Below are positions 157 through 33,412 of a stretch of DNA of 34,743 nt, one piece after another. The stretch is from a virus. The position numbers were made by a program, and so were the translations under genes. The notes under the pieces are model-generated. The model was given only the letters and a program-made list of their open reading frames with translations. It made no database searches and was not told the origin of the DNA. Numbering within the stretch: position 1 is the first letter of the stretch; every line of letters begins with the position of its first letter. The DNA is taken from positions 1 to 34,743 of IMG/VR virus record IMGVR_UViG_3300040801_003698. One strand, given 5' to 3'.

Positions 157-1731
157 ATGATGTCCCAACTATCCCTCGAACTCAGTCCGATGGACTTGCG
201 GTTTCCCGAGCTTCGGGAATACCAGAAGAAGCAAGTCAACGAAACGATCGCCACCCTATCCGACGATACCCGCCGTATCATGCTCCAACAGCCTACCGGC
301 GGGGGGAAGTCTGTTATCTTCGCTTGGTTCGTCGTCGCTGCCCTCAAGCGCGGCCAGCGTGTCCTTGTCGTCGTCCACAAAGTTGAGCTACTACGGCAAG
401 CCCTCGATCACATCGAGGAGTGGACGGGGCAACGCCCTGGCGCGATCGCCAACAAATCCCAGTTTCCCCGAGAACCCCACAAGCAAGTCCAAGTTTGCTC
501 AATCCAGGCGTGGGGCCGCCTTAAGAACAAGCCCGAAGCCAACTTGATCATCATCGACGAGGCTCACCATGCAGCGGCCCCGTCCTACACCAGAATTTTC
601 ACCCACTACGAGAGGCAAATTATCCTCGGGTTCACCGCCACCCCAACGCGCCTAGATGGGCGAGGACTGCGATGGCTTCATAACGGGGTGTCGGGGTTCC
701 AAGCTCTAATCCTAGGAGCCACCACGGAATCGCTAATGGCAGATGGGTTCCTATGCCCAGTAAAGATTTATAGCCCTCAGAACATCCTAGATCCCGAGGC
801 CGCTGGTATCCCGAAGTCTAAGGGGGACTACAAGCAGAAGGAACTGGAGGAATACACGGAAACGGTAATGCTCTCGGGCGACGTGTTTGAGACATGGAGG
901 AAGCTCGCTCAAGGTAAGCAAACCGTCGTCTATCCGGTTTCCGTAAAACTCTCCCTAGAGTATTGCGAAACGTTCATTGACAACGGGGTGGCAGCGGCCC
1001 ATATCGACGCCAACACCCCAGCCAAAGAGCGCGAGCAAATCCTCGCCGACTTTGCAGCTACCAAAATCACCGTCTTATTCCAGCACAGTATTGTCATTGA
1101 GGGTGTGAATATCGTCGGGATTGAGGTGGTTCAGTTTGCCCGTCCCACCTCGTCCATCGTGACGTGGTTCCAGGCGATCGGGCGATCGCGCCGTCCCGCA
1201 CCCGGCAAGGAATGGGCCCTAATTATTGATCACACGGCCACCCATGCCCTACTCCCCCACCCCGATGATGAGATCCCCTGGAGCCTCGACGCGACATCCC
1301 TGACTCAACAGGGTTTTGGGACGCTTCAATGTCCTGAGTGTGGGCATATCTACAAAATGTCCCAACCTGATCGCGATCGCGGTTGGAGCCATTGCGCTGG
1401 CTGTCAAACTAAGTTCTCCTTCGAGGTGCAACGCGGCCCCGGTGGGCGGCCCCGAATTAAAACGGTGCAAACCCTACCGGCGGACTTTAACGAGTTATCG
1501 CTATATCAACTCGACAAGCCTACGATGGAATTTTTCGAGCAGAAACAACAGGAAGAAAAAGAGCTTGGATACAAATCCGGGTGGGCTGCCTTTAAGACGG
1601 TGGATGCCTGCAAGGAAGGGAAGTTCGCCGGCGGATTACAGGAGTTCAAAGAAATCGCCATCCGCACTGGATTCAAGCCCGGATGGGGATACTACAAATG
1701 GCGTGAAGTTCAGGAATGGAGGTTCGGATAA
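157..1731 (+). CDS. DEAD/DEAH-box superfamily 2 helicase with C-terminal zinc ribbon
   Basis: This is a 524-residue SF2 DNA or RNA helicase. Visible motifs are a Q-motif-like LREYQ (about 19-23), Walker A QPTGGGKS (45-52), DEAH (134-137), TATPTR (160-165), a motif V region IEGVNI (about 314-319), and motif VI QAIGRSRRP (339-347). Cysteines 392, 395, 413 and 416 form a CPxC/CxxC zinc ribbon after the helicase core. This layout resembles phage helicases of the UvsW/YeeB-like type that unwind branched or recombining DNA; the exact substrate cannot be read from sequence. ATG codons at 157 and 160 are both possible starts. It heads a tightly packed plus-strand set, and its stop overlaps the next start as TAATG, implying translational coupling with the adenine methylase. 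Confidence 0.9.
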   Translation: MMSQLSLELSPMDLRFPELREYQKKQVNETIATLSDDTRRIMLQQPTGGGKSVIFAWFVVAALKRGQRVLVVVHKVELLRQALDHIEEWTGQRPGAIANKSQFPREPHKQVQVCSIQAWGRLKNKPEANLIIIDEAHHAAAPSYTRIFTHYERQIILGFTATPTRLDGRGLRWLHNGVSGFQALILGATTESLMADGFLCPVKIYSPQNILDPEAAGIPKSKGDYKQKELEEYTETVMLSGDVFETWRKLAQGKQTVVYPVSVKLSLEYCETFIDNGVAAAHIDANTPAKEREQILADFAATKITVLFQHSIVIEGVNIVGIEVVQFARPTSSIVTWFQAIGRSRRPAPGKEWALIIDHTATHALLPHPDDEIPWSLDATSLTQQGFGTLQCPECGHIYKMSQPDRDRGWSHCAGCQTKFSFEVQRGPGGRPRIKTVQTLPADFNELSLYQLDKPTMEFFEQKQQEEKELGYKSGWAAFKTVDACKEGKFAGGLQEFKEIAIRTGFKPGWGYYKWREVQEWRFG

Positions 1732-2552
1732 TGAAATCACCCCTAGCCTATCCAGGCGGTAAAGCCAAGGCGGTGGGCCTAATCCTCGATCGCCGCCCCC
1801 AAGCCTTCACCTCCTACCGCGAACCCTTCATCGGCGGCGGCTCTGTCTTCCTCTCAATCCGCCAACGGTTCCCCACTATCCCTTGTTGGATCAACGATTT
1901 AAACCCCGATGTTTTCGCCTTCTGGCGGGGATTGCAAATAGATTCAGAGGGGATGGCGGATCTCATCGCCGACTGGAAAGACGCCAATCCCGACGGGACC
2001 AAACTCTACGAAGTACTGAGGGAATGGCAACCCAGCACTATTCCAGAGCGCGGCGCTCGCTACTTTGCCTTATCGCGCATGGTTTATGGTTCCTGCGTCG
2101 CCTCGGGTGGATTCTCGCAAACCCGGTTCAACTCGCGATTCACCCATCGCGCGATCGCCGCCCTGCGGGGCATGGGCCACGTCCTCAGCGGCGTGATGAT
2201 CACAAATCTCGACTACCGAGAGTGCCTACGTGGCCAAGGGGCCTTTATTTTCTTAGATCCCCCCTACGCCAGTGTCGCCCCCATACTTTACGGTTCCAAA
2301 AGAGGAGACTTGCATAGGGGGTTTCCTCACCAGCAATTTGCCCGTGACGTGCGCCAATGCGCCCATGACTGGCTCATCACCTACGACGACTGCCCTCTCG
2401 TTCGTGAGAATTTCGCTGGGTGCAAGATGGAGGCGTGGGCGCTCCAATATGCGATGGTGAAAGGATCGAAACGCCGCAAAGGGGCGGAATTATTCATCGC
2501 CAACTACCCCTACAACATCCCCCAACAACTGGAGTTAGCACTAGCACTATGA
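1731..2552 (+). CDS. D12-class DNA N6-adenine methyltransferase (Dam-type)
   Basis: This 273-residue protein transfers a methyl group from S-adenosylmethionine to adenine in DNA. The N-terminus has YPGGKAKA (7-14), and EPFIGGGSVF (31-40) is the SAM-binding motif of the D12 class. The catalytic motif IV is DPPY (176-179). The family usually recognises GATC or related sites, and GATC is the core of the HIP1 octamer that is abundant here, so the enzyme could methylate the phage's own HIP1 sites; that is inference. The start at 1731 shares its A with the helicase stop, and its own stop overlaps the next gene as ATGA. An upstream in-frame ATG at 1716 would overlap the helicase by 16 bases and lacks support. 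Confidence 0.9.
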   Translation: MKSPLAYPGGKAKAVGLILDRRPQAFTSYREPFIGGGSVFLSIRQRFPTIPCWINDLNPDVFAFWRGLQIDSEGMADLIADWKDANPDGTKLYEVLREWQPSTIPERGARYFALSRMVYGSCVASGGFSQTRFNSRFTHRAIAALRGMGHVLSGVMITNLDYRECLRGQGAFIFLDPPYASVAPILYGSKRGDLHRGFPHQQFARDVRQCAHDWLITYDDCPLVRENFAGCKMEAWALQYAMVKGSKRRKGAELFIANYPYNIPQQLELALAL

Positions 2553-3628
2553 TCGGTATCAAGACGGCCAAGCGCCAAAGTCGCGAGCAAGGGGCCATCC
2601 ACCTTTATAGTGGCCCCGGAAAAGGTAAAAGCCGGGCCATCCTAGGGTTGCTACTGCGATCGCTCGGAGCGGGCCATCGCGTTTGCCTGGTTCAGTTCCT
2701 CAAGGGTGGGCGGAATTACGACGAAGATCCGGCGATCGCAGCTTTACAATCCGCCTTCCCCCACGCCCTCGACTTCATCCGCTGCGGGCGCGGTGAGCAT
2801 CTATCCCTCTACACCACTACGCCCGATGACTACCGAGAATCCCGTCGCGGTTGGGACATCGCCAGGGGTGCGGTTGCCTCGGGATTCTACGATCTCGTCG
2901 CCCTCGATGAAATCAACCCAGTGGCCCATCTTAATCTTGTCTCAGCCTCGGAAATTGTCGAAGCCTTGCAAGGGCGCAAGACAAACACGGAAATCATCCT
3001 GACTGGGGAGCCTTGCCCGGACGACTTCAGTGCGATCGCGGATCTCCATTCCGTATTTACACCGTCTCGGGAAGGGGAGTTAGGCAACCTCCATGTCATT
3101 ACGGGCGACGGAAAGGGCAAAAGCACATCGGCTCTAGGCTATGCCCTAGAAGCGATTGGGGTGGCAATGCGAGAGCGTGATGATCGCGGGGTTGCTATTA
3201 TTCAGTTCCTTAAAGGGGGATCGGGATACACTGAAGATGGCCCCCTCCGCAAACTTCAAGAGTCCCACCCCAACATGACATATCGGGTTCGTTGTGGGCG
3301 CGATGCGATCGTCTGGCGAGGACGGCAAACCCCCCTCGACTACGAAGAAGCGGCCATGGGGTGGGATGAAGCCGTTGCTGCGATCGCATCGGGGGACTAC
3401 CGGGCCGTGATCCTCGATGAGATTAACACCGCCACAGACTTACATCTATTACTGAGCGAACCCATCTATCGCGCGATCGCCGCCAACCCCCAAACCAAGA
3501 TCATCTGCACCGGGCGTTATTCCACTCCCCAGAGGTATTCCACCCTCGCTGGGACTACCACTACAATCAACTGCAAGCGACACTACGCCGCTAGTGGGTG
3601 GAAGTTACGCCAAGGGATCGATTACTAG
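2549..3628 (+). CDS. Tandem fusion of two ATP:corrinoid adenosyltransferase (CobA/BtuR-type) domains
   Basis: The 359 residues contain the same P-loop domain twice. Domain 1 has Walker A SGPGKGKS (21-28), VQFLKGG (48-54) and a Walker B/adjacent motif LVALDEIN (116-123). Domain 2 has TGDGKGKS (185-192), IQFLKGG (218-224), VILDEIN (287-293) and TGR (321-323). It ends in GIDY, as enteric CobA does. VxxQFxKG and LDEIN are hallmark CobA motifs. The family transfers the 5'-deoxyadenosyl group of ATP to cob(I)alamin, making adenosylcobalamin. Known CobA is about 200 residues and dimeric; this looks like a covalent dimer. Domain 1 lacks the typical C-terminal GIxAxxGIE segment, so it may be structural. 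The window also encodes an adenosylcobalamin-dependent reductase. The ATG at 2549 overlaps the methylase stop by four bases. Confidence 0.85.
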   Translation: MIGIKTAKRQSREQGAIHLYSGPGKGKSRAILGLLLRSLGAGHRVCLVQFLKGGRNYDEDPAIAALQSAFPHALDFIRCGRGEHLSLYTTTPDDYRESRRGWDIARGAVASGFYDLVALDEINPVAHLNLVSASEIVEALQGRKTNTEIILTGEPCPDDFSAIADLHSVFTPSREGELGNLHVITGDGKGKSTSALGYALEAIGVAMRERDDRGVAIIQFLKGGSGYTEDGPLRKLQESHPNMTYRVRCGRDAIVWRGRQTPLDYEEAAMGWDEAVAAIASGDYRAVILDEINTATDLHLLLSEPIYRAIAANPQTKIICTGRYSTPQRYSTLAGTTTTINCKRHYAASGWKLRQGIDY

Positions 3629-3637
3629 GAACATACT

Positions 3638-4159
3638 ATGAAACCCATCACAACGTCCAATTATTCTGCCGTTCCGTCCGCATCTGATGGAGGAATCTCA
3701 ATCAGTCTTAGTCCTCCGAAGGGTTGCCAATACCCCCACTACCTCAAGTTAGCTCCATCCATTTACCTGTTGAGGGACTACAAGCGAGGGGGGGTGAGCG
3801 ACTGGGAATACGCCGTCCGGTTCAAAGAGGAAACCCTCGACGCTCTTAACGCCAACACCGTGGCCCAAGAAATTTCAGAGTTATCGAAATCCAAGAATAA
3901 CGCCCGCCTCCTGTGTTACGAACCCCCATCTAAGTTCTGCCATCGCCGCCTTGTGGCCATCTGGTTAGAGGTGTCCCATGCAAGTTCATGGGTTCACGAG
4001 GTTGAGCGATCGCGCACCGGGCAACTTAGCCCCACAATGTCCTGGGACGCTAAGGACTTCACCTTCCGCAAGAACTTCGAGAGCTTACTGCGGGGGGAAC
4101 CCGTCCACCTCGCAACCCAAAACTTCGAGTTTGAGCAACAAACCCTATTCGCCCTCTAA
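3638..4159 (+). CDS. DUF488-family protein
   Basis: The 173-residue product carries LLCYEPPSKFCHRRLVAIWL (about 91-110), matching the conserved CYE...FCHR.LVA.WL signature of DUF488 proteins. The family is widespread in bacteria and phages and has no settled biochemical role; the conserved Cys and His residues suggest a redox, metal or nucleic-acid site. AGGA about 7 bases before the ATG supports this start. It ends the plus-strand block, and its last 15 bases overlap the 3' end of the convergent minus-strand gene. I see no terminator in that overlap, so transcripts from both sides may run into each other. Confidence 0.7.
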   Translation: MKPITTSNYSAVPSASDGGISISLSPPKGCQYPHYLKLAPSIYLLRDYKRGGVSDWEYAVRFKEETLDALNANTVAQEISELSKSKNNARLLCYEPPSKFCHRRLVAIWLEVSHASSWVHEVERSRTGQLSPTMSWDAKDFTFRKNFESLLRGEPVHLATQNFEFEQQTLFAL

Positions 4160-10925: not shown

Positions 10926-12900
10926 GGCCCTTAAGCGGTTGGAGGCAAGGCAGAAAGCAATAGAGCGATACTTCCCCGACTCAGGTGTTGGGGAGAGTCC
11001 GATCGCGCGGGCGATCGCCGCCGACAAGGAACCCGACTACCCCTGGCTTGATCGCATCAGCCGGCACTTCACCCCTCTCCCCCTGAATGATTTTGTCGAA
11101 TCGGATCAGCATATATCAGCGTCGGGGCAAGTGCGTCTCTACCCAAAGCAGCGAGAGGATTTGGAGCGTTTCCTTGGGAGCGATCCTAAGCAAGTCTTTG
11201 AGGGCGATCGCCTTAGATCTTATACCGAGGCTTTCCTAGTCTGGGGTAAAGGATCAGGTAAGGATTTCGTCGTGAGTGTGACTCAGGCGTGGGTTGTCCA
11301 CATTTTGCTGTGCCTAAAATCCCCGCAAGCCTATCTCGGCATGGCCCCAAACGAGAATATCGATCTCGCTGTGATTGGTTATGGCGAGTACCAGGCCAAA
11401 ACGGTGTACTTCCAGAAATTCCGCAATCGTATCATCAACTGGCCATGGCTGAGGACAACGCTCGACTTGCTGCGCCCGGATGTTGGCGGCGATCGCTGGC
11501 TCAAGGATAGGGGCGATTTCGTTCATGCCCAGGATATCGAGTTCCCCCACCACATCCATTGTTGGAGTTTGACAAGCTCCGTTAACGCTAGTGAGGGGAA
11601 GAACCTCCTATTTTGGGTTCTCGATGAATTGGCGGCGTTTTCGGGTTCCGAGTCAAAGGCTAACACCGCCAAGATGATCCATTCGTTGGTGGTGTCGAGC
11701 GCCCGGACGCGCTTCAATAACCGCTGGCGTGGCTTTGCTATCAGCTTTCCCCGCCATGCCGAGGATTACATGATGCAAATGGTGGCGCTCTCGCGGCGAT
11801 CGCTCCTGAAGGATACCTACTCAGCCGTTCGAGCCACATGGGAAGTTGTCCCCCACTTAACTGAGGATGATTTCGCTGAGGACTATCGCCGTAACCCAGA
11901 GGAGAGTGACACGAAGTATGCCTGTCGCCCGCCGGCGGCGATCGACGCCTACTTTAGATCGCCCGAGCTATTGCTTATGCACTCCCACGGGATTGATGCG
12001 GATCTCATTGATGAGAAACTCCCAGATTTGGGGGTGGGGGTTCGCGATGCGATCGCCGCCAGGGGGCGCAATCCAATCTCGATGGTGGATCGCTTCGGAG
12101 ATCCCGTGCTTGACGATCGCGGGTTCCCCCAACTTGCTGACTGGTTCCGATCTGAGAAGTCCCCATCTGGACTCGATTACGACTACTACTGCCACCTTGA
12201 TCCGGGGTTGACGGGCGATGGGTATGGGCTGGCGATCGGACATCTCCATCAGCCCGAGGCGGGCCAATTCCAACCTCAGATTGATCTCGCCTTCCGATGG
12301 ACGGGGGCCATGTTTGAGAAGTTTGGGGATATCCGCCGCGAGTCCTATTATGAGCGCGATAACGCCCACACAGACGAGGTTACGGCTAAAGAGGTAGATT
12401 ACAAGACAGTGCGTTATTTCCTCTACTACCTCAGTGAAGTCCGGGGCTTTCACTTTGCTTGGGTATCGGCCGATCGGTGGAACAGTGCCGACTCCATCCA
12501 AGAGCTTAGAAACCACGACTTTAACGTAATGCCCCACCTCGTCACAAAGGAAGACTACGACGAATTTAAGTCTCTGGTTTACGATCGCCAACTAATCTAC
12601 TACGGCTACCGCGCCCTCATCCTGGAATGTTACAAGCTCATCCTCACCGGCGGGGCCAAGGTTGACGCACCTCGCAGTGAGTCGGATGGGATGTTATCCA
12701 ACTCCCACAAGGATGTTTCTGATGCTGTGGCGGCGGTAGTATGGGCCATGGTTCGCGCCAAAGATCCTGATATTGTGTTCTCCCAGTTTGAGGAGATCGA
12801 AGACGACAAAAAACCTCAGCCAATCGTGGCTGAGGTTGGGGGGGAGCGGATGCTAGGAGATTCCCGCACTGCGTCGCTATTGTCGGAGTTTTTTGATTAG
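10918..12900 (+). CDS. terL: Terminase large subunit (packaging ATPase and nuclease)
   Basis: The 660-residue protein is the DNA-packaging motor. The ATPase half has Walker A VWGKGSGKD (108-116) and Walker B with catalytic Glu in FWVLDE (232-237). The C-terminal RNase-H-like nuclease half shows the first catalytic Asp in HLDPG (425-429), a second candidate in WVSADRW (about 515-521), and a final Asp in KDVSDAVAAV near 605. These three acidic positions match the two-metal nuclease of terminases. The ATG at 10918 overlaps the small-subunit stop. The stop at 12898-12900 overlaps the convergent PP-loop gene by four bases. The protein is longer than many terminases because of an acidic tail. Confidence 0.9.
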   Translation: MFKALKRLEARQKAIERYFPDSGVGESPIARAIAADKEPDYPWLDRISRHFTPLPLNDFVESDQHISASGQVRLYPKQREDLERFLGSDPKQVFEGDRLRSYTEAFLVWGKGSGKDFVVSVTQAWVVHILLCLKSPQAYLGMAPNENIDLAVIGYGEYQAKTVYFQKFRNRIINWPWLRTTLDLLRPDVGGDRWLKDRGDFVHAQDIEFPHHIHCWSLTSSVNASEGKNLLFWVLDELAAFSGSESKANTAKMIHSLVVSSARTRFNNRWRGFAISFPRHAEDYMMQMVALSRRSLLKDTYSAVRATWEVVPHLTEDDFAEDYRRNPEESDTKYACRPPAAIDAYFRSPELLLMHSHGIDADLIDEKLPDLGVGVRDAIAARGRNPISMVDRFGDPVLDDRGFPQLADWFRSEKSPSGLDYDYYCHLDPGLTGDGYGLAIGHLHQPEAGQFQPQIDLAFRWTGAMFEKFGDIRRESYYERDNAHTDEVTAKEVDYKTVRYFLYYLSEVRGFHFAWVSADRWNSADSIQELRNHDFNVMPHLVTKEDYDEFKSLVYDRQLIYYGYRALILECYKLILTGGAKVDAPRSESDGMLSNSHKDVSDAVAAVVWAMVRAKDPDIVFSQFEEIEDDKKPQPIVAEVGGERMLGDSRTASLLSEFFD

Positions 12901-13931
12901 TCGATGCAAGAGCAGCGCATCCCTTCCTTGGCGGACTCGACGGCGGCCAACTCTAAGGGGGTGAGCTTGTCTAAATCCCGCCAACTGAACCGGCGCCCCA
13001 GTCCTTTGATGGAGGTGCTGCGGGTAATATGGCTCATCGCCTGTTTTTCAATCTCGCATCCCAACTCGTAATATTCGGGGTGGTTATCTCGGAGTTCCCG
13101 CACCTCTGAAACTCGCATATTGGGACAAAACCAGCAGGAACTCTTGGGAGGGATCTCCCCTAGAATCGCCAAGCATAGGGCATTGCAGTGCGCCTGTTCG
13201 AGTCCCCACTCGATGAGGGGATATTCATCAAAGAAGTTGCCATGCTCCAACTCTTTCGGATGCCCTGATTTCATGAGCAGGCGACTCGTCTCTCCCGCGT
13301 GGATGCCAACTAGGGAGCGGATCGGGCGATCGCCATAAACCGCATTCAGTTGCTTCTGCATTGGCTCGATCTTCCACTTCATCGAGCAAGCACCCCGTCC
13401 GTAGGCCTTAGAGGGAAACCCCTCAGTGACGAGGCACTCCTCACCCAGTGATTCGTACTTGTAGTTTTGGCGGATGTCGTTCTCTTGGGATACTGCCAAC
13501 AGGGTTGTGGTGACGGCGGTGGCCCATGGCTCTAAGTTCTTGCGGGGAATGGATGCGATCGCCTCGCCTACCTCGCGGTACACCTTGCCTCGTCGTTGGG
13601 GGTTCTTGATTTTGTATCTCACTACGGAGATAGGGGGAAACCCGACAGACTTCAACCAGGTATTAAACCGAGCCATAAACTCGTATGTCTCTGGCTTCTC
13701 GTTGCCGGTGTCTGAGAACCAAATCCCATCAGGGCGGATACCCTTGCAGTACAGCGCCAAAATTACCGCCGTCGAGTTCGTCCCGCCTCCATACGAGATG
13801 ATCATTGGGGCCCCTTCCGGGGGAGTGCGGCGCTTTAGCATTTCTACGATCGCGTTAACCGATTGCTGCCGCGCCGTCCCCTTCTGTGGCACCATAGGCG
13901 ACGCGCCTTCTAGCAGGGATAGTTGTCTCAT
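12897..13931 (-). CDS. PAPS-reductase/DndC-like PP-loop ATP-pyrophosphatase
   Basis: The 344-residue protein has the PP-loop SYGGGTNSTA (46-55). It also has Cys182 in ACSMKWK, Cys266 and Cys269 in CWFCPN, and a CSC pair near the end (340, 342). PP-loop proteins adenylate a substrate before sulfur or amide transfer, and the cysteine pattern is like that of phage PAPS-reductase-like proteins and DndC, which can hold an iron-sulfur cluster. The sequence LDKLTPLELAAVESAKEG is conserved-looking near the C-terminus. No other dnd genes are visible, so DNA phosphorothioation is not supported. The gene starts four bases after the stop of the unknown gene at 13935-14402, with a GGAGGG site before its ATG, and is probably co-transcribed with it. 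Confidence 0.8.
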   Translation of the reverse strand: MRQLSLLEGASPMVPQKGTARQQSVNAIVEMLKRRTPPEGAPMIISYGGGTNSTAVILALYCKGIRPDGIWFSDTGNEKPETYEFMARFNTWLKSVGFPPISVVRYKIKNPQRRGKVYREVGEAIASIPRKNLEPWATAVTTTLLAVSQENDIRQNYKYESLGEECLVTEGFPSKAYGRGACSMKWKIEPMQKQLNAVYGDRPIRSLVGIHAGETSRLLMKSGHPKELEHGNFFDEYPLIEWGLEQAHCNALCLAILGEIPPKSSCWFCPNMRVSEVRELRDNHPEYYELGCEIEKQAMSHITRSTSIKGLGRRFSWRDLDKLTPLELAAVESAKEGMRCSCID

Positions 13932-21624: not shown

Positions 21625-21648
21625 GCCCGCCCTGTGCGGGCTTTTTTT
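21625..21648 (+). terminator. Rho-independent terminator of the portal unit
   Basis: GCCCGC (21625-21630) and GCGGGC (21636-21641) form a stem with a five-base loop, followed by seven T. It lies directly before the large helicase gene, whose ribosome binding site follows within 20 bases. The helicase gene is thus expressed by read-through or by a promoter I cannot see. Confidence 0.85.
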
Positions 21649-21660
21649 ATAGGGGAAACT

Positions 21661-24600
21661 ATGGATATTCTTACAGGCGATCGCCTCTGGTTCTTAGGTA
21701 ACGGGGAAATCGAAATTGTCCGGGGCGGGCGATCGCATGGCTTCACCTGGGGCGCTCAATCCCTCCAAAAAGATGCCGGGGGAGAACTCCCAGATGGCGC
21801 AAGATGGATCACCTTACACCCGAACGGGAAAGATGATCCTGATAACTATGTCCGCGTCGTCATCCGCCCTAATCCCGATGGTAGCGCTTCAGTGATCGGT
21901 GGGGCCGGAGGCAAACTCAACCAACTCCACCTGTCGCGCCTCAAGTCACCCGAGGAGTGGAAGGAAAACGCCAAAGCCAACCGAGAGAAGCGCAAGGAAA
22001 AAGAGAACCAACTTACTGATGAGCAGAAGCGAGATCGCGAGATGGCCCGACGCGAAGGGGCGATCGCTAAAACGGAGAATGCCAAGCAAACCCTCAATAC
22101 ACTCAGGGAGCATGGCATTGAATCTGGTATCACCGATGAACAACTCCGGGAACTTGACACACCCCCCCAGACTGATGCCGATGAATCGGAGTGGAAGGCA
22201 TGGAAGGCAAATGCTAAGCAGGTGAGCGATCGCGCCAAGGCTATCCAAAACGCCTATGAACACAAGCTCGTCACCGACAACGAGGCCCTAGCGTCGGCAT
22301 TCTTGGGAGAGGAGAACACCCTCGGAGATGTGGGAGCCAAGGTGATTGTCGATCGCGCCCACGTCGCAGCGTCTCCCGATGGGGATGTGGTGTCATCGGT
22401 TAATCGCCTCCCAAGCGGAGATTGGCTGGTTCGCAATGGCGGCGATGGGGAAGACAAGGTTTATGATCGCTGGGAAGACGCGGCCAAGGAACACGTCGCT
22501 AATGTCGTCTTAAACGAGCAAGAGCGCGGCGGCGATCGCACCCAAGCCGAAGACTTCTACGATCCGTCTCAATGGATCACCTCTCCAGAGGAGGAGTTAC
22601 CCGAGGGGTTCACCTTCAAGGCTGAGGCGGCGGCGGCGATCGCAGCACTGGCGGCCGAGCGCAAAGCTGGGGAGAAGAACACTAAGTATGCCGAAAAGGC
22701 GATCGAGCGGGGGAAACCCTACGCCCCTGGATATGATGTTGATGCCACTGATGAGGATGTTCTCGCCTCCATCCAAGATAAGGCTAAGCTCTACGACGAT
22801 GCGTTCACCCACAACAAACTCCTCGACATGGTGGACGATCGCACCGCCAAAGACTTACAAGCTCATGTCTCTAATGGGGGGTACTCATCCCTAGCTGATC
22901 TCGCCTCCGACATTCTCAAGGTGAACACCGTCAATCGCGCCGTCGTTGAGGCTGTGGGGCATAACGAGGCGGCAAAACTTCTCGCCTATCAAGCACGGCA
23001 AAACCTCACCCCGGCGGAATACGAGCGGGCCACACAAGCTCAGGCGGCACTCCATGCGAGGGAGTCCACCCGGATTGCCAATGAGGCGATCGCGGCAACT
23101 CAACCAATGATGGAGCGCCTCTCATCCGCTAATGACGAGATGCTGGCAATTGAGGAGGGGGCCTTAAAGGAACAGCGCCAGATCACCCCCGACGAGCAAC
23201 TGGCGATCGATAACCTCTCTCATGAAGCGCACGAGCTTAAGGCGGCGATCGATAAACGCCTTGGGACAACTGTGGGGAGTCTGCAAGCCTCAGCAGCCTT
23301 AGTTGCCGCACTAGAAGGCAAACCCGACAGCTTACGCTTTGTGGGTAGTGGGAACCTCAAAAGTACGGCGGATCTAGTTCCCCAAATGTGGGGCGATCGC
23401 GGGGAAGACACACCCCAGCAAACCTTGTTCGACAGGTATGGACTCACCCCCGACGACTTCGAGATTATCCCTGGCGATGGGGGAGAGCAGTCTATCAAAA
23501 TCAATCCCTCGGGTGTTGAAAAACTAGCCAAAGCAGAAGGGGTGCAAGAGGACAGGGAAGCCTACGAGAAGGCTCAGGCGATCAAGCGCGGTGAACTTGA
23601 CGAACCCGACTTTACCCCATCAGGGTTCAAGTATCGCCCAAAAAGCACCTACACCGATGCCCCGAAAGAAGCGAATCAATTTGGCGTGTCGTTTGATCCG
23701 CCTCAAGGAACGGGGGATGACTCGGTGCGTGAGGAGTTGCTGCAATATGTCGGGGCCCGCGTCGCTAACGGCTCCAACCCCATGGACGTATTTGGAGAGC
23801 TACACTCTCAGGAGTTCGCCGAATCGCTCAACGACGCCGAACAAGTGGGGCGGGTAATTCAGGCACTTGATCGCCAATTCTTTCGAGAATCAGAGGAGAA
23901 AGGTGGCTACATCGATGAGAAATCAGTGATTAGCGCCTTCCGAGAGTATGCCGAGTTCGAGGCCACCCGCCAACGGGAAAAGGGACTCGCCTCGGGTGAG
24001 GCGATTCATAAGCAGAAGATCACCGATAAAGACGCCGCAATTGAAGCCAGTCACCGGGCCCTATCGGCGATGCCCATGGCCAGGGTTGCCTTCAAACCGA
24101 CAAAAACGCGACGTGAGCGGCGATGGATGCGCGAATATGCCATCACCGAAATCATGGGAGAGACGATCCGAGAGGATGCGATCGCCTCCAAGCAAGAAAA
24201 AGAGCAGGAGAAAGCAGAGGAGCCTGGACTATTCGGGGCGATGGACTTCTCGGCTACCGTCAGGCTCACCGAACAAGAGAAGGCAATGGGGCTTACTGAG
24301 TCCGACGTGGCCTCTCAAATGGCGTCCGCATCGGCTGAGTCGAATCGCGAGGCGTCGGGGGGGCAATCCCAGTCAGCACCAAAAACCCAATGGGATGAGT
24401 TTGTGGATATGCTGGGTGGTGAGCGTCAAGCCTACGAGGCGGTAGAGGATCGTGTTCGCGGGCAATTCCTCCATCGCTTCAGCCAAGCCTACAATCGGAT
24501 GGCCTCATCTCCCATCGCCCTAGCCTCACAGCAGCAATCAGGGGCCAAGGGGGTGGCCATGGCAATGCTATCCCCCGATGATCGTGATCGCCACAGTAAG

Positions 24601-26628
24601 GAAATGGCGGAACTACGCCAGCGGCGGATAGTTTCCCTGCGATCGCGCGATGCTCAAGGGCGGCTCCAATCTGAGGAGGACGACTGGCTCAACGTGGCCG
24701 AGCGGTTCAAGCAGACGGCTGGCAACCGCCAATTCAGCCTATTCAACATGGCCGATATTGGGGGAACTCAGAGAGACAACCCAGATCGCCAGAAAGAACT
24801 CCTCAACGAGAAACCCAAGATGGGACACAGCGATCGCATCAGCCTAGGTGAATCAGCCGAGCAGCAACTGATGTCCGAGATCCTTCCCTCCGTACTAGGG
24901 AACTTTGAGCAGGTGAATGATCCGGTGAGCCTCTATCCCGAGGTAACGTGGAATGGCCCCCACGCCTCCAAACAGCGCGTCCTCAAGATGGTTGAGGAAC
25001 AGAAGAAGGTAGGGGTTCACTTTGGGGCAGGGAGCGGCAAGAGTTCCATCATGCTAGGGGTATTCACTGAGTTAAAGGCCAAAGGGAAGGCTAAGCGCAC
25101 CATCATCGCCGCACCATCCGGTGTCGTTGGACAGTTCGCCGGGGAATGCTGCACCTTCTTGGAGCCTGGAAAGTACAACTTCAACGCCAACCTTGGGTAC
25201 GATCGCGCCAAACGGATGGAGTCCTACCGAGATCCAAACCTCGATATCCACGTCACGACACGAGAGAGCCTGACGAACGACTTGCTCTACATGATTCAAG
25301 AACACGCCGGGGTGGATGGGGAGACTTTCAAGGCGGCCAGTGAGGGCGATCGCCGCCAAATGTTGCTATCGGCTCTCCAGAAGGAAGGCATAGATCCTGC
25401 CGATATGGTGTTCTCTGTCGATGAGGCGCACGATGTCAGTCACCGTCGCGGCGTCGAAGCGTCCAATCGTTCCCTCGTCCTCGAAACCCTGGCCCACCTC
25501 TCGGGACATTACCTCTCCGCTACCGGAACTCCCACCAAGAATGATTTATCAGAGATGTACTCATTTCTGCATAGCGTCGCCCCTGAAAAGTTCAACGATG
25601 AAAAGGGTTTCCTGGCTACCTATGGGAGTGACACGATTGGCGCGAAACGGGCCCTGCAACGTGCTGTGGCTCCCTACTCCTACGCTGCATCCACAAAGCC
25701 GCGTTCCAAGGAAACCGGGGAACTCCTGAAAATGAATGAAAAGTCATCAAATATCAAACCCCATGAATATCAGACTCAGGAGCGCGATCGCATCACCCAG
25801 AACTACGACAAAATCTCTCAATGGTATGCCAAGGAAACTCCTAGGGTTATCGATCGCATCATGAAGGAAGAAGGGGCCATGCGTCCTTTATCCGGGGAAG
25901 ACTTCGCCCATGCCTGGGAAGACGAGGGGTTGAAGGCGGCGGTGGATGCGATCGCCTCTCCCGAGACTTGGGGCAAGATGTCGGATGAGCAGAAGAAGGC
26001 GGCAATTGGGGGGCAAGTGATGGCGTCAGGAGCGATTAAGAATGTTGCCCTTAACCGCCTCTACCACTTGGCCCCCTACGACAAGAATCCCAAGGCCCAA
26101 GAGACGGTGAAGATGTGTATGGATTATGTCAGAGAGCAGGGCAAACAGGGGGTGGTGTTTTCGGCGTCGTCCGAGGGGGCGGCGATGTTAGCTGAGCAGC
26201 TACGGGGACAAGGGGTGAATGTTGGTGTCATCGATGGCTCCCTCTCGGCTCAGCAAAAGTCCGAGGAACGCCTAAAGTTCACCGCAAAGGGTGCAGAGCG
26301 TGGCGAGTACGACATCCTGATTGCCACCGACGCGGCCCAAACTGGACTCAACCTGGCGTCAGGACGGTTCCTCATCCACTACGATGTGCCGATGACGAAG
26401 AAAGCCTATGATCAGCGATCGGCGCGGATTCACCGTCTTGGGCAAATCGCCGACACCGATATTCACACCATGATGCTCGACACTCCCGAGGAAAAGGTGG
26501 CCATGGCGCGAATGTCACGAAAGGGGGAGATGGGGGAAGTTCTCCAGTCTCGTTCCGAGGTGATGGATGACACGGGACTCGCTGGGGAAATTGAGCGGAT
26601 GCGCTTGGGCGAACGGAGATCGTCGTGA
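21661..26628 (+). CDS. Giant SNF2/DEAH-type helicase of the phage polyvalent class
   Basis: The 1655-residue protein has an N-terminal module with ARWITLHPNGKDD and GGAGGKLNQLHLSRLK, as in phage and plasmid polyvalent proteins. A polar, coiled-coil-rich region of about 1000 residues follows, then an SF2/SNF2 helicase: Walker A GAGSGKSS (1122-1129), DEAH (1254-1257), SATGTP (1286-1291), DAAQTGLN and RSARIHRLGQ (1586-1595). Polyvalent proteins are thought to be packaged in the virion and injected to protect or process incoming DNA; that role here is inference. The start at ATG 21661 follows AGGGGAAA. A second terminator pair follows the gene. Confidence 0.85.
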   Translation: MDILTGDRLWFLGNGEIEIVRGGRSHGFTWGAQSLQKDAGGELPDGARWITLHPNGKDDPDNYVRVVIRPNPDGSASVIGGAGGKLNQLHLSRLKSPEEWKENAKANREKRKEKENQLTDEQKRDREMARREGAIAKTENAKQTLNTLREHGIESGITDEQLRELDTPPQTDADESEWKAWKANAKQVSDRAKAIQNAYEHKLVTDNEALASAFLGEENTLGDVGAKVIVDRAHVAASPDGDVVSSVNRLPSGDWLVRNGGDGEDKVYDRWEDAAKEHVANVVLNEQERGGDRTQAEDFYDPSQWITSPEEELPEGFTFKAEAAAAIAALAAERKAGEKNTKYAEKAIERGKPYAPGYDVDATDEDVLASIQDKAKLYDDAFTHNKLLDMVDDRTAKDLQAHVSNGGYSSLADLASDILKVNTVNRAVVEAVGHNEAAKLLAYQARQNLTPAEYERATQAQAALHARESTRIANEAIAATQPMMERLSSANDEMLAIEEGALKEQRQITPDEQLAIDNLSHEAHELKAAIDKRLGTTVGSLQASAALVAALEGKPDSLRFVGSGNLKSTADLVPQMWGDRGEDTPQQTLFDRYGLTPDDFEIIPGDGGEQSIKINPSGVEKLAKAEGVQEDREAYEKAQAIKRGELDEPDFTPSGFKYRPKSTYTDAPKEANQFGVSFDPPQGTGDDSVREELLQYVGARVANGSNPMDVFGELHSQEFAESLNDAEQVGRVIQALDRQFFRESEEKGGYIDEKSVISAFREYAEFEATRQREKGLASGEAIHKQKITDKDAAIEASHRALSAMPMARVAFKPTKTRRERRWMREYAITEIMGETIREDAIASKQEKEQEKAEEPGLFGAMDFSATVRLTEQEKAMGLTESDVASQMASASAESNREASGGQSQSAPKTQWDEFVDMLGGERQAYEAVEDRVRGQFLHRFSQAYNRMASSPIALASQQQSGAKGVAMAMLSPDDRDRHSKEMAELRQRRIVSLRSRDAQGRLQSEEDDWLNVAERFKQTAGNRQFSLFNMADIGGTQRDNPDRQKELLNEKPKMGHSDRISLGESAEQQLMSEILPSVLGNFEQVNDPVSLYPEVTWNGPHASKQRVLKMVEEQKKVGVHFGAGSGKSSIMLGVFTELKAKGKAKRTIIAAPSGVVGQFAGECCTFLEPGKYNFNANLGYDRAKRMESYRDPNLDIHVTTRESLTNDLLYMIQEHAGVDGETFKAASEGDRRQMLLSALQKEGIDPADMVFSVDEAHDVSHRRGVEASNRSLVLETLAHLSGHYLSATGTPTKNDLSEMYSFLHSVAPEKFNDEKGFLATYGSDTIGAKRALQRAVAPYSYAASTKPRSKETGELLKMNEKSSNIKPHEYQTQERDRITQNYDKISQWYAKETPRVIDRIMKEEGAMRPLSGEDFAHAWEDEGLKAAVDAIASPETWGKMSDEQKKAAIGGQVMASGAIKNVALNRLYHLAPYDKNPKAQETVKMCMDYVREQGKQGVVFSASSEGAAMLAEQLRGQGVNVGVIDGSLSAQQKSEERLKFTAKGAERGEYDILIATDAAQTGLNLASGRFLIHYDVPMTKKAYDQRSARIHRLGQIADTDIHTMMLDTPEEKVAMARMSRKGEMGEVLQSRSEVMDDTGLAGEIERMRLGERRSS

Positions 26629-28612: not shown

Positions 28613-31600
28613 TTATCCTTTTCTAATCTCGCATCCCATCGAGTCGCACCCACTGGGGCCTTCGGCGTCGCCCCAAGTTCCAGCATATTGGTTGAGCGCC
28701 CGTTGTAGGGGAGTGCGGGCCGATAGGGTGATGCGATCGCACTCTACCTGATAGCGATCCTCAGAGATAGGCTCAAAGGGGAGGCGAGGGAACGTGAGGT
28801 TTGCGGTTGAGCGCGACATCATCGCCATGCTCACATAGCCCTCGTCATCGCGAATCGCCTCATAGATTCGTTGGGCAACCGCCGGTATCTCCGACTCAGA
28901 CAACTCTAGGGTTCCCGAGGTGTTGTGGCGGGTGTAGTGGCGTTGGTGCTGCATATAGAAGTCGAACTGGGCCAGTGCGGGTAGGTTTCCGATATCAACC
29001 GAGTCAACTCCTGGCATATTCGCCCAACTCACCTCACAGGGGATTTCGATCAACCAGGTATGGCAGCGCGGATCAAAGGGGTTGTTGAGAAGTTGTCCGT
29101 CGTCGTCGGTGTCGAATTGTCCGGGAACCACCCGGTAACCAGCATCCATACAGGCCCGTGCGATCGGACTCCCCGCGTCGAAGGTGATGCGGCGGATGTA
29201 CCGCAAAGACTTTGGAGGATGCCACCCTGGAGAGGCCCCGGTGAGTAGAGACTTGCTTCCCGATGGCTGGATGGCCGTAGAGCGGTTGGGAGCCTTGAGG
29301 TTGTGCTTGTCGCAGTATTCCGCCACGGTTTCCTCAACGACTTCGCGCCACATATTTAGGTAGAACGCCTCCATGGTGTGGAAGTAGTCCCCTTGAGTTG
29401 CAAACCCGCTCGGAGAGTCTGGGAACAACTTATGGAGGGGGTTAGCAACTTCTTCTCCCCAGGTGCGATCGCGCCCATTCTCCCACCACTTCAACCAGTC
29501 CGCCCCAAAGAGAGTCACAAAGAAGTCGAAAGATCCAGTGAAGGTGACAGCCACAATGGGATCTAAGTCGCGGGCCAGTTGGTGGCGAGGGTGGATGAAC
29601 CCACGCTTAAGCGCAGCGGCGGCGTAGAGGGCGCAGGCTTTGAAGCTGTCGAGTTGTTCTTCGAGGTTATGGGGGTGGACGCGGTTCAAGTGGACTTCGC
29701 TAAGGTTGCAGTGAAAGTCCTTCCCGATGATTTCGCCGCAATTGTGAGCAACAAACCCGTTCCCATCAAACTGATGAGCGCCTGGAACCGTGCAGTCGAA
29801 GACTTCTTCTACGCCGTCTTCAATAATCTCCTTAATGGTGGCAACAAACCGTTCCCGATTTTGGGTGCGCTTGTATCCTGAGAGCAGGCGTTCGAGCTTC
29901 CCACGCTTATCGGGTGAGCGGAATCCCACCACATCCTGATAGGTGAACAGGTTATCGTTTGCGATAACGAGTTCGTGGTTTGCCTTGCAGTGGTAAAGTG
30001 TCGGACTGCGATCGCTTCCAGGTAGTAAGCGCTCCCCTTCTTCCCGGCGATTCTCATAAATCTTGGACTGAATCCCAAGGCGGGCCAGCATTCGCTGAGC
30101 GCGGGTGAGGGTTGAGAGCGTTGATTGAGATAGGCGAACGCTTCCCCCCTTAGACAAGTTGCCTTGCACCGAACCATCAGCGTCAAACAGTCCCTGAAGT
30201 AGTCCCCGGTGAAAATCATAACTAGATCGCTCAATGGCGTCAGTCATGCTCTTAGCTTTGCGTGTGACACCGAATCGTTCGCATAACCCCCCTAAGAACG
30301 TCGTGCCTACTTGCAGGAAGTCACCCTGGGATGGGCGGTAGGCGGTGAGGCTGCGATCGCATCCAGAACTCTTGATGCAGGTGAGCGCGTGTTCTGCCAT
30401 CTCTTTCTGATGTTCACCCCAGTACCGAAGCAATCCAGTGGGTGATTTTGAGGAACCTTGGTCCAGTGAACCATTGCCAATGAGGTTGCCGATCATCCAT
30501 CCCTCCTCATGCGTACCATCTCCATCCCATCCCATGGTGATGTCTCGGTGATTATGTAGTTTGACGCGATCGCCCGGTTTCAATTCCCCAGCTTCTACCC
30601 ATTCAGTGTATTGCGCGTTTTGCGTCTGGGCTGTGACTTTGAGGAGCTTGTGGTTTCGGGTGAGTCGGAGGTTATACCCTTCTTGGGTGCTGAGCTTAAC
30701 AACAGGTTTAACACCATTCGAGAAGAATCCCGCCTGAGTGGTTGAGAATAGCTCGCCATTGATATAGACGGAGGTTTGGGCCCCAAGCAAGTCCTTAACC
30801 TGACGTGGGCCATCAGCGGTGTGAATCCAGGTGTCGGACGTGACGCAGGGATTCAGCCCGATCGCCTCTCGGATGTATTCCTGGCGGGGTAGGGGGAGAT
30901 TGCGCCCATACTTCTCGCGGTGGCAGTGGTTGAGAAACGCCATTGCCTCGATTTTGCGCCCGTTCCCCATGTCGTAGAGGCGTAGAAAAGATTTCTTGCG
31001 GGGTTCTGTGTCAAGGATATCGGCGGCGACGCGGGCGATCGTCTCCCCGCCCCATTGGATGGCCCCCTCACCGCACTCAAACTGAAGACGCACAGAATCC
31101 TCGCATTCTTTCAACGTGGGCTTGTGGGTGAAGACTCGGGTATGGTTGGCGGTGATTAGGTGCTTTTTCTTCTCGTCAGCCACCCATTCACCATTAGGAA
31201 GCTGGGAGTACACGCCCATCTTGCACTGGGCAAATTCAGTGTCGCGTTCGCTACCCTGATTGATATTTGCAGTCCGCCGAACACCACCAGCCACCACGGC
31301 CAACGCTGATGCTGAGAAGATATAAGCACAATCCGTCGCTGTCGGCTTGCGCCCAATGCAGTCATTGAGCGCGTCGGCGGCGATCGCAAACATATCGGGC
31401 AACTTGGCGGGGTTCGAGACTCCCCCAAACCCTTTCAGGATTTCCCCCTTCGGACGGACATTGCCGAGATCAATAGCCACCATGAGCGGGTTGTCACTGA
31501 AGTTTGGATCGCTCGACAATTCTAATAAGGAACGGTAGGCGTCACACCATCCCTGGCGACTATCGCCGACGGTGATAACAACCCCCTCATCTCCAATCCC

Positions 31601-32113
31601 GTCCCCCGAGGTGAACTGCTCAACAATGGTGTCGTCTTGCCGCAGAACAGCGGCGATCGTGCCAATGGGAGTCGTTACTGTCACATCTAGGCGGCGGCGG
31701 ATGACGGGGAGGTTGGCGATCGCTGAATCCGTCAAGACTCGTCCCGTCCCCGAACCCATCATGGCTAGATTCATCAACTCACCAAACACGTCCCACGAAT
31801 CGACGTGCATTGACGTGCAGTTGAAAATCCCCGAATAGTTCTCGGGCTTCTCTAACCAAGGTGTGCCAGCGACGAACAAGGCCCGCCCACTTGGGAAGGA
31901 TTTAGCTGATTGGAACTGGCGTAGGGTGAGATCCATTTCACTAAGGGTAAACTCCCCTAACTCACAAAAGTAGCGATGGACGCGCGTAACGGTGTCGTTC
32001 CAGGTTTCCCGCGTCCCGTCATCCTTGAGGCGACAGTACGATCGCGCCCGCAGCGGATCGAACGTCTTGACTTCCGGGGTGATGGCTTGTTGGAAGGGGT
32101 TAGGCTGCGACAT
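28613..32113 (-). CDS. nrdJ: Class II (adenosylcobalamin-dependent) ribonucleotide reductase with intein
   Basis: The 1166-residue precursor includes a 369-residue intein (residues 423-791); the spliced enzyme would have 797 residues, like monomeric class II reductases. It converts ribonucleotides to deoxyribonucleotides using a thiyl radical made from adenosylcobalamin. The conserved LNPCGEI motif, with the radical Cys, is reconstituted only after splicing (LNP before, CGEI after). C-terminal CDSMGC is the shuttle Cys pair. The ATG at 32113 follows AGAGGAAA and overlaps the small upstream gene by 14 bases. Its cofactor could be supplied with help of the CobA-like fusion at 2549-3628. Flanking methylase genes share the unit. 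Confidence 0.9.
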   Translation of the reverse strand: MSQPNPFQQAITPEVKTFDPLRARSYCRLKDDGTRETWNDTVTRVHRYFCELGEFTLSEMDLTLRQFQSAKSFPSGRALFVAGTPWLEKPENYSGIFNCTSMHVDSWDVFGELMNLAMMGSGTGRVLTDSAIANLPVIRRRLDVTVTTPIGTIAAVLRQDDTIVEQFTSGDGIGDEGVVITVGDSRQGWCDAYRSLLELSSDPNFSDNPLMVAIDLGNVRPKGEILKGFGGVSNPAKLPDMFAIAADALNDCIGRKPTATDCAYIFSASALAVVAGGVRRTANINQGSERDTEFAQCKMGVYSQLPNGEWVADEKKKHLITANHTRVFTHKPTLKECEDSVRLQFECGEGAIQWGGETIARVAADILDTEPRKKSFLRLYDMGNGRKIEAMAFLNHCHREKYGRNLPLPRQEYIREAIGLNPCVTSDTWIHTADGPRQVKDLLGAQTSVYINGELFSTTQAGFFSNGVKPVVKLSTQEGYNLRLTRNHKLLKVTAQTQNAQYTEWVEAGELKPGDRVKLHNHRDITMGWDGDGTHEEGWMIGNLIGNGSLDQGSSKSPTGLLRYWGEHQKEMAEHALTCIKSSGCDRSLTAYRPSQGDFLQVGTTFLGGLCERFGVTRKAKSMTDAIERSSYDFHRGLLQGLFDADGSVQGNLSKGGSVRLSQSTLSTLTRAQRMLARLGIQSKIYENRREEGERLLPGSDRSPTLYHCKANHELVIANDNLFTYQDVVGFRSPDKRGKLERLLSGYKRTQNRERFVATIKEIIEDGVEEVFDCTVPGAHQFDGNGFVAHNCGEIIGKDFHCNLSEVHLNRVHPHNLEEQLDSFKACALYAAAALKRGFIHPRHQLARDLDPIVAVTFTGSFDFFVTLFGADWLKWWENGRDRTWGEEVANPLHKLFPDSPSGFATQGDYFHTMEAFYLNMWREVVEETVAEYCDKHNLKAPNRSTAIQPSGSKSLLTGASPGWHPPKSLRYIRRITFDAGSPIARACMDAGYRVVPGQFDTDDDGQLLNNPFDPRCHTWLIEIPCEVSWANMPGVDSVDIGNLPALAQFDFYMQHQRHYTRHNTSGTLELSESEIPAVAQRIYEAIRDDEGYVSMAMMSRSTANLTFPRLPFEPISEDRYQVECDRITLSARTPLQRALNQYAGTWGDAEGPSGCDSMGCEIRKG
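29741..30847 (-). other. Intein with LAGLIDADG homing endonuclease domain
   Basis: Within the reductase, the intein begins with Cys1 (codon at 30845-30847) and ends with His-Asn (29741-29746), and the first extein residue is Cys (29738-29740). Splicing block A is CVTSDTWIHT, block B has LTRNH (intein residues 62-66), and the C-terminal blocks are VEEVFDCTVP and GNGFVAHN. Two LAGLIDADG-type helices, GWMIGNLIGNGSL (about 116-128) and LLQGLFDADGSV (216-227), indicate a homing endonuclease. Both Asp/Asn metal positions appear as GNG and DADG, so the first helix has an Asn where Asp is usual, which may affect cutting. Confidence 0.92.
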
Positions 32114-32390
32114 GATATGTTTCCTCTAATGTGTGCATGATTGCGAGTTTGGCGTTATGGTGATTGAGCCAAAATAGGGTTCTCGGTTCTGGTTCGTCAT
32201 TGCTTCCCGCGCGGCGAACCATCCAAGTGGGAAATAGGGTATCGAGGGGGATGTGACATTCCAGCTTCCGGGTTGCAACTCCAGGTTCAACCCAGAGAAC
32301 GCAAACCGGCGCGATCGCCTCCATCTGAATGCCAGCGGGATCCTCAAAGATATCCCCCGCTTTTTGGGGGAACATTACAATCGGTTTCAA
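32100..32390 (-). CDS. Small hypothetical protein in the reductase unit
   Basis: The 96-residue protein begins KPIVMFPQKAGDIFEDPAGI and ends near the reductase start, which it overlaps by 14 bases; its own ATG overlaps the cytosine-methylase stop by four bases. The overlaps strongly support co-translation. I do not recognise a family. The segment PVCVLWVEPG is hydrophobic but too short for a membrane helix. A role with the reductase or methylases is only suggested by position. Confidence 0.6.
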   Translation of the reverse strand: MKPIVMFPQKAGDIFEDPAGIQMEAIAPVCVLWVEPGVATRKLECHIPLDTLFPTWMVRRAGSNDEPEPRTLFWLNHHNAKLAIMHTLEETYHVAA

Positions 32391-33412
32391 TGCGTTAACT
32401 CCGTGATTAGTTCTTGGGCGTTGGCGGCGATCGCGCGCACGACGGGAAGTGTCATGGCATTAGCGATCGCGCCTACTCTTAGGTAGTTTGGGGCTAATCC
32501 TCCGAGGTAGGGAATAAGGGTATAGTCATCTGGTAGCCCTTGCAATCGCTCCAACTCGACTGGAGTGAGCTTGCGGGCGTTATACCCATCTGTGATAGCC
32601 ACGGCGTTTCCTCCACTACAGGGGCGTCCTTTGCGGCTATTCCCGGATCGTAAGGTAGGGGAAAGGATGCCCGCGTCTCGTCCGTTGTCGATGGATGAGA
32701 AGGCGATAAGCCCATCTCCATGAGCGGGGGGAGATTGATGCTGTGTTTGGCCGCCCTTCTTAGTATCCCAGTTTTGCAGCGATCGCTCAGCCAGAATCGC
32801 GAGAGGTAAGACTGCCAATCTTGCTGTGTTGATCCTGGATGCCGCGCCTCCCAATCCTCGAAGTCTTCCAATATCGATCGCAGCGAGATAAATTCGCCGC
32901 CGCCGTTGGGGGACATACCGAGAACTGTTGAGGCACTTCCAAGCGATCGCTCTCCGGCGTCCCAAGACACCACCGCAGCTTGGCCAGCGTCCGCCGGGGG
33001 GATGCAGTTCACCTTCGCCTGCCATTCCTCCGATAAATTGTCCAAAAGCGTTATCAGAGGTGGTAAGCACTCCTGGGACGTTTTCCCAGACGGTGAGAGT
33101 TGGGGCGATTTCATTAGCTAGTTCAATGAATTTCAGGGTGAGTTGGCCAACGCCGTCAGCGAGCGATCGCCGCAAGCCAATCGTCGAGAACGCTTGGCAG
33201 GGAGTCCCACCACAGAACACATCAACCTGCCCACGATAGCTTTCCCCGTCGATATTCCTCATGTCTCCGAGGTTGCGCGATTCGGGGAAACGCTCGGCAA
33301 GGACGGCACTCGGGAACGCGGCGATTTCGGATTGAAAGATTGAACGCAATCCAAACGCTAACTCGGGAACCCCGATCCCTGACGACACGGTGGCGATCGT
33401 CTCTAGTCGCAT
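32387..33412 (-). CDS. DNA C5-cytosine methyltransferase
   Basis: The 341-residue protein has the ordered motifs of C5 methylases: motif I VSSGIGVPELAF (9-20), motif IV GGTPCQAFS with catalytic Cys72, motif VI WENVPG (109-114), motif VIII QRRRRIYL, motif IX near RKLTPVELERLQGLP, and a motif X-like AIANAM. It methylates cytosine in a sequence I cannot predict; the target recognition region lies between VIII and IX. It overlaps the Dam-like gene by 10 bases and the small downstream gene by four. No cognate restriction enzyme is visible, so it is probably a solitary protective enzyme. Confidence 0.88.
   Translation of the reverse strand: MRLETIATVSSGIGVPELAFGLRSIFQSEIAAFPSAVLAERFPESRNLGDMRNIDGESYRGQVDVFCGGTPCQAFSTIGLRRSLADGVGQLTLKFIELANEIAPTLTVWENVPGVLTTSDNAFGQFIGGMAGEGELHPPGGRWPSCGGVLGRRRAIAWKCLNSSRYVPQRRRRIYLAAIDIGRLRGLGGAASRINTARLAVLPLAILAERSLQNWDTKKGGQTQHQSPPAHGDGLIAFSSIDNGRDAGILSPTLRSGNSRKGRPCSGGNAVAITDGYNARKLTPVELERLQGLPDDYTLIPYLGGLAPNYLRVGAIANAMTLPVVRAIAANAQELITELTH

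Follow-up and report, generated by a model that had tools for sequence, protein, structure and literature searches.

The stretch of DNA analysed here, hereafter the window, is the 34,743-base IMG/VR virus record IMGVR_UViG_3300040801_003698, which is classed as linear and could be a fragment. A superfamily 2 DNA helicase gene (157..1731, plus strand; phrog_16, E 3e-84) opens a gene run that continues with a D12 (Dam-type) DNA adenine methyltransferase (1716..2552, plus strand; PF02086, phrog_56), a tandem CobA/BtuR-family gene encoding 359 aa, of the cyanobacterial PRK07413/NF005647 type (2549..3628, plus strand; an open reading frame matched by NF005647 and twice by PF02572), and, downstream of it, a DUF488-family gene (3638..4159, plus strand; PF22751, PF04343). 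The cobA frame extends from an ATG at 2549 to a stop at 3628, and the methyltransferase stop overlaps its start in the ATGA at 2549-2552. The window also encodes portal and terminase genes, and the cyanobacterial HIP1 octamer GCGATCGC is present in 100 copies over its 34.7 kb, whereas its base composition predicts 0.7; because of this excess, together with the portal and terminase genes, the virus is, judged by its sequence, a cyanophage. Megablast with the window's first 25 kb retrieved no relative, and PHROGs holds no family for the tandem CobA protein.

Three DNA methyltransferase genes are found in the window, the D12/Dam-type gene at 1716-2552 (plus strand) and two others at 32387-33412 and 33403-34071 (both on the minus strand), the types represented being D12/Dam-type, C5-cytosine and a weak Dam-like match. 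CGATCG sites number 142, against 10 expected, and this abundance, together with the methyltransferases, suggests that HIP1-like sites may be methylated. Elsewhere in the window, 12897-13931 (minus strand) encodes a PAPS-reductase-like phage protein (phrog_424, E 1e-30), and 21634-26628 (plus strand) a 1664-aa protein with a helicase region at its C-terminal end (phrog_62) and about 1100 N-terminal residues without assignment.

The product of the cobA gene is matched twice by PF02572, each time over the curated cut-off of 25.7 bits, and as a whole it scores 246.6 bits (E 2e-73). Domain 1 (2585..3061, plus strand; 125.7 bits) carries the P-loop GPGKGKS (2612-2632, residues 22-28), QFLKGG (residues 49-54) and LDEIN (2903-2917, residues 119-123). 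Domain 2 (3083..3625, plus strand; 124.1 bits) carries GDGKGKS (3104-3124, residues 186-192), QFLKGG (residues 219-224), LDEIN (3413-3427, residues 289-293), the family motif GRDAIVW (3296-3316) and a C-terminal GIDY. The two complete sets of CobA motifs that a previous, sequence-only reading had seen in one chain are thus both there, with every named motif located, and the P-loop GxGKGK(S/T) and LDE (E128) motifs stand in both domains. The same reading had remarked that domain 1 lacks the typical C-terminal segment. This is correct, as the HxFxxxGxxAQxGIEY-type segment is kept by domain 2 (HYAASGWKLRQGIDY, residues 345-359) and missing from domain 1, but it is a trait of the family, common to the cellular tandems. 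The FTW motif (F91/W93) of the Co(II)-corrinoid loop of Salmonella CobA is absent from both window domains: at that site domain 1 has neither F nor W, and domain 2 keeps the W, within GRDAIVW, and not the F, the loop alignment being gapped and these positions tentative.

An AlphaFold2 model of the window protein, for which the sequence alignment contained window and locus proteins only, reached a pLDDT of 85.9 and a pTM of 0.85. Comparison with Salmonella CobA, which had been proposed as a check, identified it as the closest solved fold, with Z scores of 21.0-21.5 for its entries against 14.9 for RecA; the best of these relates domain 1 to entry 4hut (Z 21.5 across 156 residues). Folds of the RecA type, also in the list of structural matches, were set aside as instances of the shared P-loop fold. 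Salmonella CobA, like ordinary CobA in general, works as a homodimer, and the model is consistent with a fusion that would act as a built-in dimer.

The best family match of the window protein is NF005647/PRK07413 (E 2e-113), which aligns residues 2-359 with positions 6-382 of a 382-position model. The score of 378.8 bits is lower than the 426-bit equivalog cut-off, and on this basis we treat the protein as a phage relative that has diverged from the family, and not as an equivalog. Single-sequence scans of viral and genome contigs gave no match, whereas alignment scans did; the alignment-based scan of bacterial genomes returned at least 560 related stretches, the best 80 of which are all cyanobacterial, with 47-50% identity; in direct comparisons, the window protein shares 49-52% identity with cyanobacterial tandems. 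Because of the full-length PRK07413 match and the cyanobacterial scan matches, the fusion is a conserved cyanobacterial (host) protein and no phage invention. The idea that it is phage-specific is not supported: PRK07413/NF005647 occurs across cyanobacteria, and phage P-SS2 provided a precedent in 2009.

Each of ten cyanobacterial genomes examined contains three PF02572 loci, namely canonical CobA (about 214-225 bits in these genomes), the tandem and a weaker third single-domain protein, and PduO was found in none of the ten. The canonical cyanobacterial CobA retains GEGFTWETQ, which includes the counterparts of F91 and W93 of Salmonella CobA, whereas neither tandem domain does. Domain 2 of the tandems has an invariant GRDAIVWR, with its W at the W93 position, and the P-loops and LDE are retained in both domains. 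Since the tandem has diverged in the Co(II)-corrinoid loop of both domains, membership of the CobA family does not prove the canonical reaction, and adenosyltransferase activity is here considered putative; no assay of a tandem CobA was present in the papers searched. As for the third paralogue (PRK07414-type), the GKGK P-loop is lost and FLKGG and LDE are retained in the four examples read (L093, L094, L096, L098); by match counts, it is found mostly with NrdJ and is mostly missing from class I-only genomes.

The sequence-only reading had also placed a class II ribonucleotide reductase in the same window, and rightly so. The nrdJ gene (28613..32113, minus strand) encodes 1166 aa, intein included, of an adenosylcobalamin-dependent, RTPR-type enzyme that scores 490 bits with TIGR02505 (cut-off 340) and matches phrog_367 (E 3e-123); the CobA and reductase profile matches in the window are all far above chance. 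The cysteines of FNC, NPC|GE, HCN and the C-terminal CxxxxC are present by eye. A LAGLIDADG-type intein occupies residues 423-791 (29741..30847, minus strand; PF14890, PF14528, TIGR01443, TIGR01445), with its junctions read from the sequence. The insertion point immediately precedes the Cys of NPCGE, and splicing would therefore be needed for an active NrdJ. In filamentous cyanobacteria, many of the NrdJ frames are split at the same model region. The two genes had been described as lying side by side; they do share one record, but they stand at its opposite ends and on opposite strands, about 25 kb apart, and only if the genome were circular would the distance fall to about 5 kb.

The relation between both proteins was followed across 244 Cyanobacteriota genomes, with psbC as the oxygenic marker; the 114 genomes with a full-length psbC were usable. 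Among these, tandem and NrdJ are both present in 82 (a figure that includes two imperfect tandems, interrupted in G077 and partial in G207) and both absent in 30, the exceptions being G057, with the tandem alone, and G092, with NrdJ alone. All 30 genomes devoid of NrdJ and tandem carry the class I small subunit, and the tandem is kept in three genomes that have both reductase classes. Canonical CobA is retained in 26 of the 31 NrdJ-less oxygenic genomes, and for this reason the tandem appears to follow the class II reductase and not B12 metabolism in general, a relation that is strong when taken as a pattern and weak when evolutionary events are counted. On the psbC tree, six changes are needed for each of the two traits; four well-supported independent NrdJ contrasts are available, the tandem being concordant in three of them and opposite in none, and canonical CobA being concordant in 0.2 on average. 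A Fisher test that ignores kinship gives 3e-25, and a kinship-aware sign test, of low power, gives p 0.25.

In the genome with the tandem alone (G057), NrdJ was undetected by two methods, and since the NrdJ frame of the nearly identical sister genome G237 is interrupted and contains a stop, a recent loss of NrdJ is suggested. The cellular tandem gene of G077 (G077:C11:190910-194254) is interrupted by some 2.2 kb in the vicinity of model positions 220-231. In hosts, the search for an operon that links the tandem to nrdJ found none; they are not adjacent in Synechococcus WH7803, nor are they in the window. In filamentous cyanobacteria (L014, L058, L085) the tandem is divergent from an adjoining fraC and a DUF5357 gene, in the filament integrity region, and adjoins neither cob genes nor nrdJ. 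An open-access literature search yielded no paper stating a link between the tandem and NrdJ.

Among 50,697 phage records searched for CobA, the only credible carriers are those of the Prochlorococcus siphovirus P-SS2, whose tandem 'cobO' (gp036, YP_003084180) and class II nrd (gp011) were published in 2009 (PMC2784084). An alignment scan of IMG/VR added one further tandem, on a P-SS2-like 7 kb fragment. A viral predicted-structure library contains just one full-length tandem, C7F482 (344 aa, 38% identical); its length and identity lead us to infer that it is the P-SS2 CobO. A tree built from 47 tandems places P-SS2 and the 7 kb fragment, with strong support, inside the Prochlorococcus/Synechococcus/Cyanobium group and the window gene outside it; the grouping of all phage copies in one clade is rejected (p-AU 0.007), although the length of both phage branches calls for caution. 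Because of this position outside the P-SS2 lineage, the window gene was probably acquired separately, as a second event.

Co-occurrence of the fusion with nrdJ in other phages, another check that had been proposed, is seen in both lineages with enough sequence (P-SS2 and the window). In the phage collections searched, no phage was found to carry the tandem but lack NrdJ, the remaining copy being the one on the 7 kb fragment. A phage copy of CobA is nonetheless optional, since a CobA match is absent from several cyanophages whose class II reductase is of this type (S-CBP2, P60, S-CBS2, S-CRES1-3, Cr-LKS4 and others). A review counted cobA in 38 and cobO in 37 of 153 cyanophages (PMC10452541); these counts were not reproduced for the tandem family, for which only the P-SS2 records matched among cyanophages. 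Three human-gut scaffolds named 'Bacteriophage sp.' (MT835487, MT837844, MT838865) were not used as phage evidence; their CobA is single-domain, and a class II reductase is absent. In MT835487 and MT838865, CobA is flanked by SSB and DapA, and the former also has TypA, DapB and AsnA; given that housekeeping genes adjoin CobA, these two look like bacterial DNA or contamination and not phage.

Across 29 cellular tandems, neither the two P-loops nor the DE of domain 2 vary, and all of these motifs are kept in the window. When all invariant positions are considered, the window protein keeps 65 of 86 in domain 1 and 68 of 95 in domain 2, that is, about equal shares, and P-SS2 keeps 46 of 86 and 79 of 95, respectively. 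In P-SS2, domain 2 thus looks like the more essential half, whereas in the window both halves are still under constraint. A division of labour between the domains, at which the sequence-only reading had hinted, is therefore plausible from P-SS2, where domain 1 has decayed and domain 2 has not, but the about equally kept domains of the window do not speak for it.

Altogether, we consider, with a probability of about 0.6, that the window gene derives from the tandem CobA paralogue of a cyanobacterial host, and that it is dedicated, in this cyanophage, to supplying NrdJ with its cofactor. Arguments to the contrary are the small number of NrdJ changes on the tree, the cyanophages with NrdJ and no CobA match, the missing FTW motif, the score under the equivalog cut-off, the distance between tandem and nrdJ in hosts and window, and the tandem of G057 without NrdJ. 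The host paralogue (PRK07413) would have been taken by a cyanophage; its product would bind ATP and (pseudo)cobalamin, pseudocobalamin being the likely substrate in most cyanobacteria. Most of the work on the corrinoid would probably fall to domain 2, and the two domains of one chain would stand where ordinary CobA forms its dimer. The tandem would then supply or renew the adenosyl cofactor specifically for the class II reductase, a role proposed by analogy with other adenosylcobalamin systems, such as the human ATR, which is described as making the adenosyl cofactor and also handing it to its enzyme (PMC8633584). During infection, phage (and host) NrdJ would be kept charged at a time of high dNTP demand, to the benefit of phage dNTP synthesis. 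A cofactor supply for the reductase had already been put forward from this one genome; it is now partly supported, and better than a single genome could have allowed, by a tandem that tracks NrdJ (82 genomes with both, 30 with neither) and by two phage lineages that both carry NrdJ, but the fusion itself is an ordinary protein of cyanobacteria, with a precedent in phages. That the tandem is, more precisely, a dedicated loading or reactivating partner of NrdJ, distinct from the general adenosyltransferase, and that cyanophages recruited the pair at least twice, is a more tentative proposal, to which we give slightly less than even odds.

Several other explanations deserve consideration. The tandem could be an ordinary ATP:co(I)rrinoid adenosyltransferase, extra copies of which would raise total AdoCbl redundantly with host CobA, its link to NrdJ merely reflecting a general B12 demand. 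Its family, the P-loops and LDE motifs retained in both domains, the NCBIfam and P-SS2 annotations as adenosyltransferase, and the picocyanobacteria described with cobO1/cobO2 (PMC9361551) are all in line with such a role. We nevertheless hold it to be unlikely: canonical CobA is already present in every class II genome examined in detail and, unlike the tandem, does not track NrdJ, FTW is found in neither domain, and phages took the tandem and not the canonical gene. The loss of the F91/W93 equivalents would suit a non-catalytic or allosteric partner, i.e., an AdoCbl chaperone, sensor or NrdJ-binding factor without adenosyl transfer, in which domain 1 may be structural; so would the decay of domain 1 in P-SS2 and the existence of a third paralogue that lost its P-loop and is likewise mostly missing from class I genomes. 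However, the invariance of the P-loops and of the domain-2 DE in cellular tandems, and their retention in the window, suggest that nucleotide chemistry still matters, and this alternative seems to us quite unlikely.

It is very improbable that the gene is a passive passenger, caught by chance from a host and unselected in the phage. The frame of 359 codons is intact and its motifs are kept, although identity to any cellular copy is only about 50%, so that selection probably acted over a long divergence; moreover, there are two apparently separate acquisitions (p-AU 0.007, subject to the long-branch caveat), both of them with NrdJ. In favour of a passenger are the long branch in the tree and the rarity of the tandem, limited to P-SS2, one P-SS2-like fragment and the window in the phage collections searched.

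Class II reductases are common in marine and freshwater viruses. A dedicated supply of cofactor to NrdJ, if true, would turn the vague auxiliary-gene annotation 'cobO' into a function in DNA-precursor supply, and a widespread cyanobacterial protein that is found almost only with NrdJ and is carried by phages is a concrete candidate when a B12 partner specific to the reductase is sought. The tandem family and the P-SS2 precedent (2009) were already known, and the value of the present analysis lies in a testable function for an uncharacterised family.

When compared with known systems, the window protein resembles PRK07413/NF005647 in having two CobA domains in the same order, a full-length alignment, GRDAIVW in domain 2 and a domain 1 without the C-terminal segment; it is some 10-20 residues shorter, and the domain-1 loop, conserved in host tandems as R-T-G-R-A/G-E-F-F (GR(A/G)EFF or similar), is altered to RCGRGEHL. 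With Salmonella CobA (BtuR/CobO; 4hut, 1g64) it shares the fold (Z 21.5), the P-loop GxGKGK(S/T) and the LDE motif, whereas the Salmonella enzyme is a single domain with the FTW motif (F91, W93), an N-terminal helix and a C-terminal segment, and the window protein has two domains and no FTW. The window NrdJ is, like the filamentous cyanobacterial NrdJ with an NPC-site intein (TIGR02505), a monomeric class II reductase with its interruption in the same model region (about 376-388); unlike it, it is encoded by a phage, and it shares 42-45% identity with the NrdJ proteins of other cyanophages. P-SS2 likewise combines a tandem CobA with a class II reductase in a cyanophage, but its cobO product is 38.6% identical to the window protein and has lost the domain-1 loop and motifs that the window keeps, and its NrdJ is one uninterrupted match, whereas that of the window is split by an intein.
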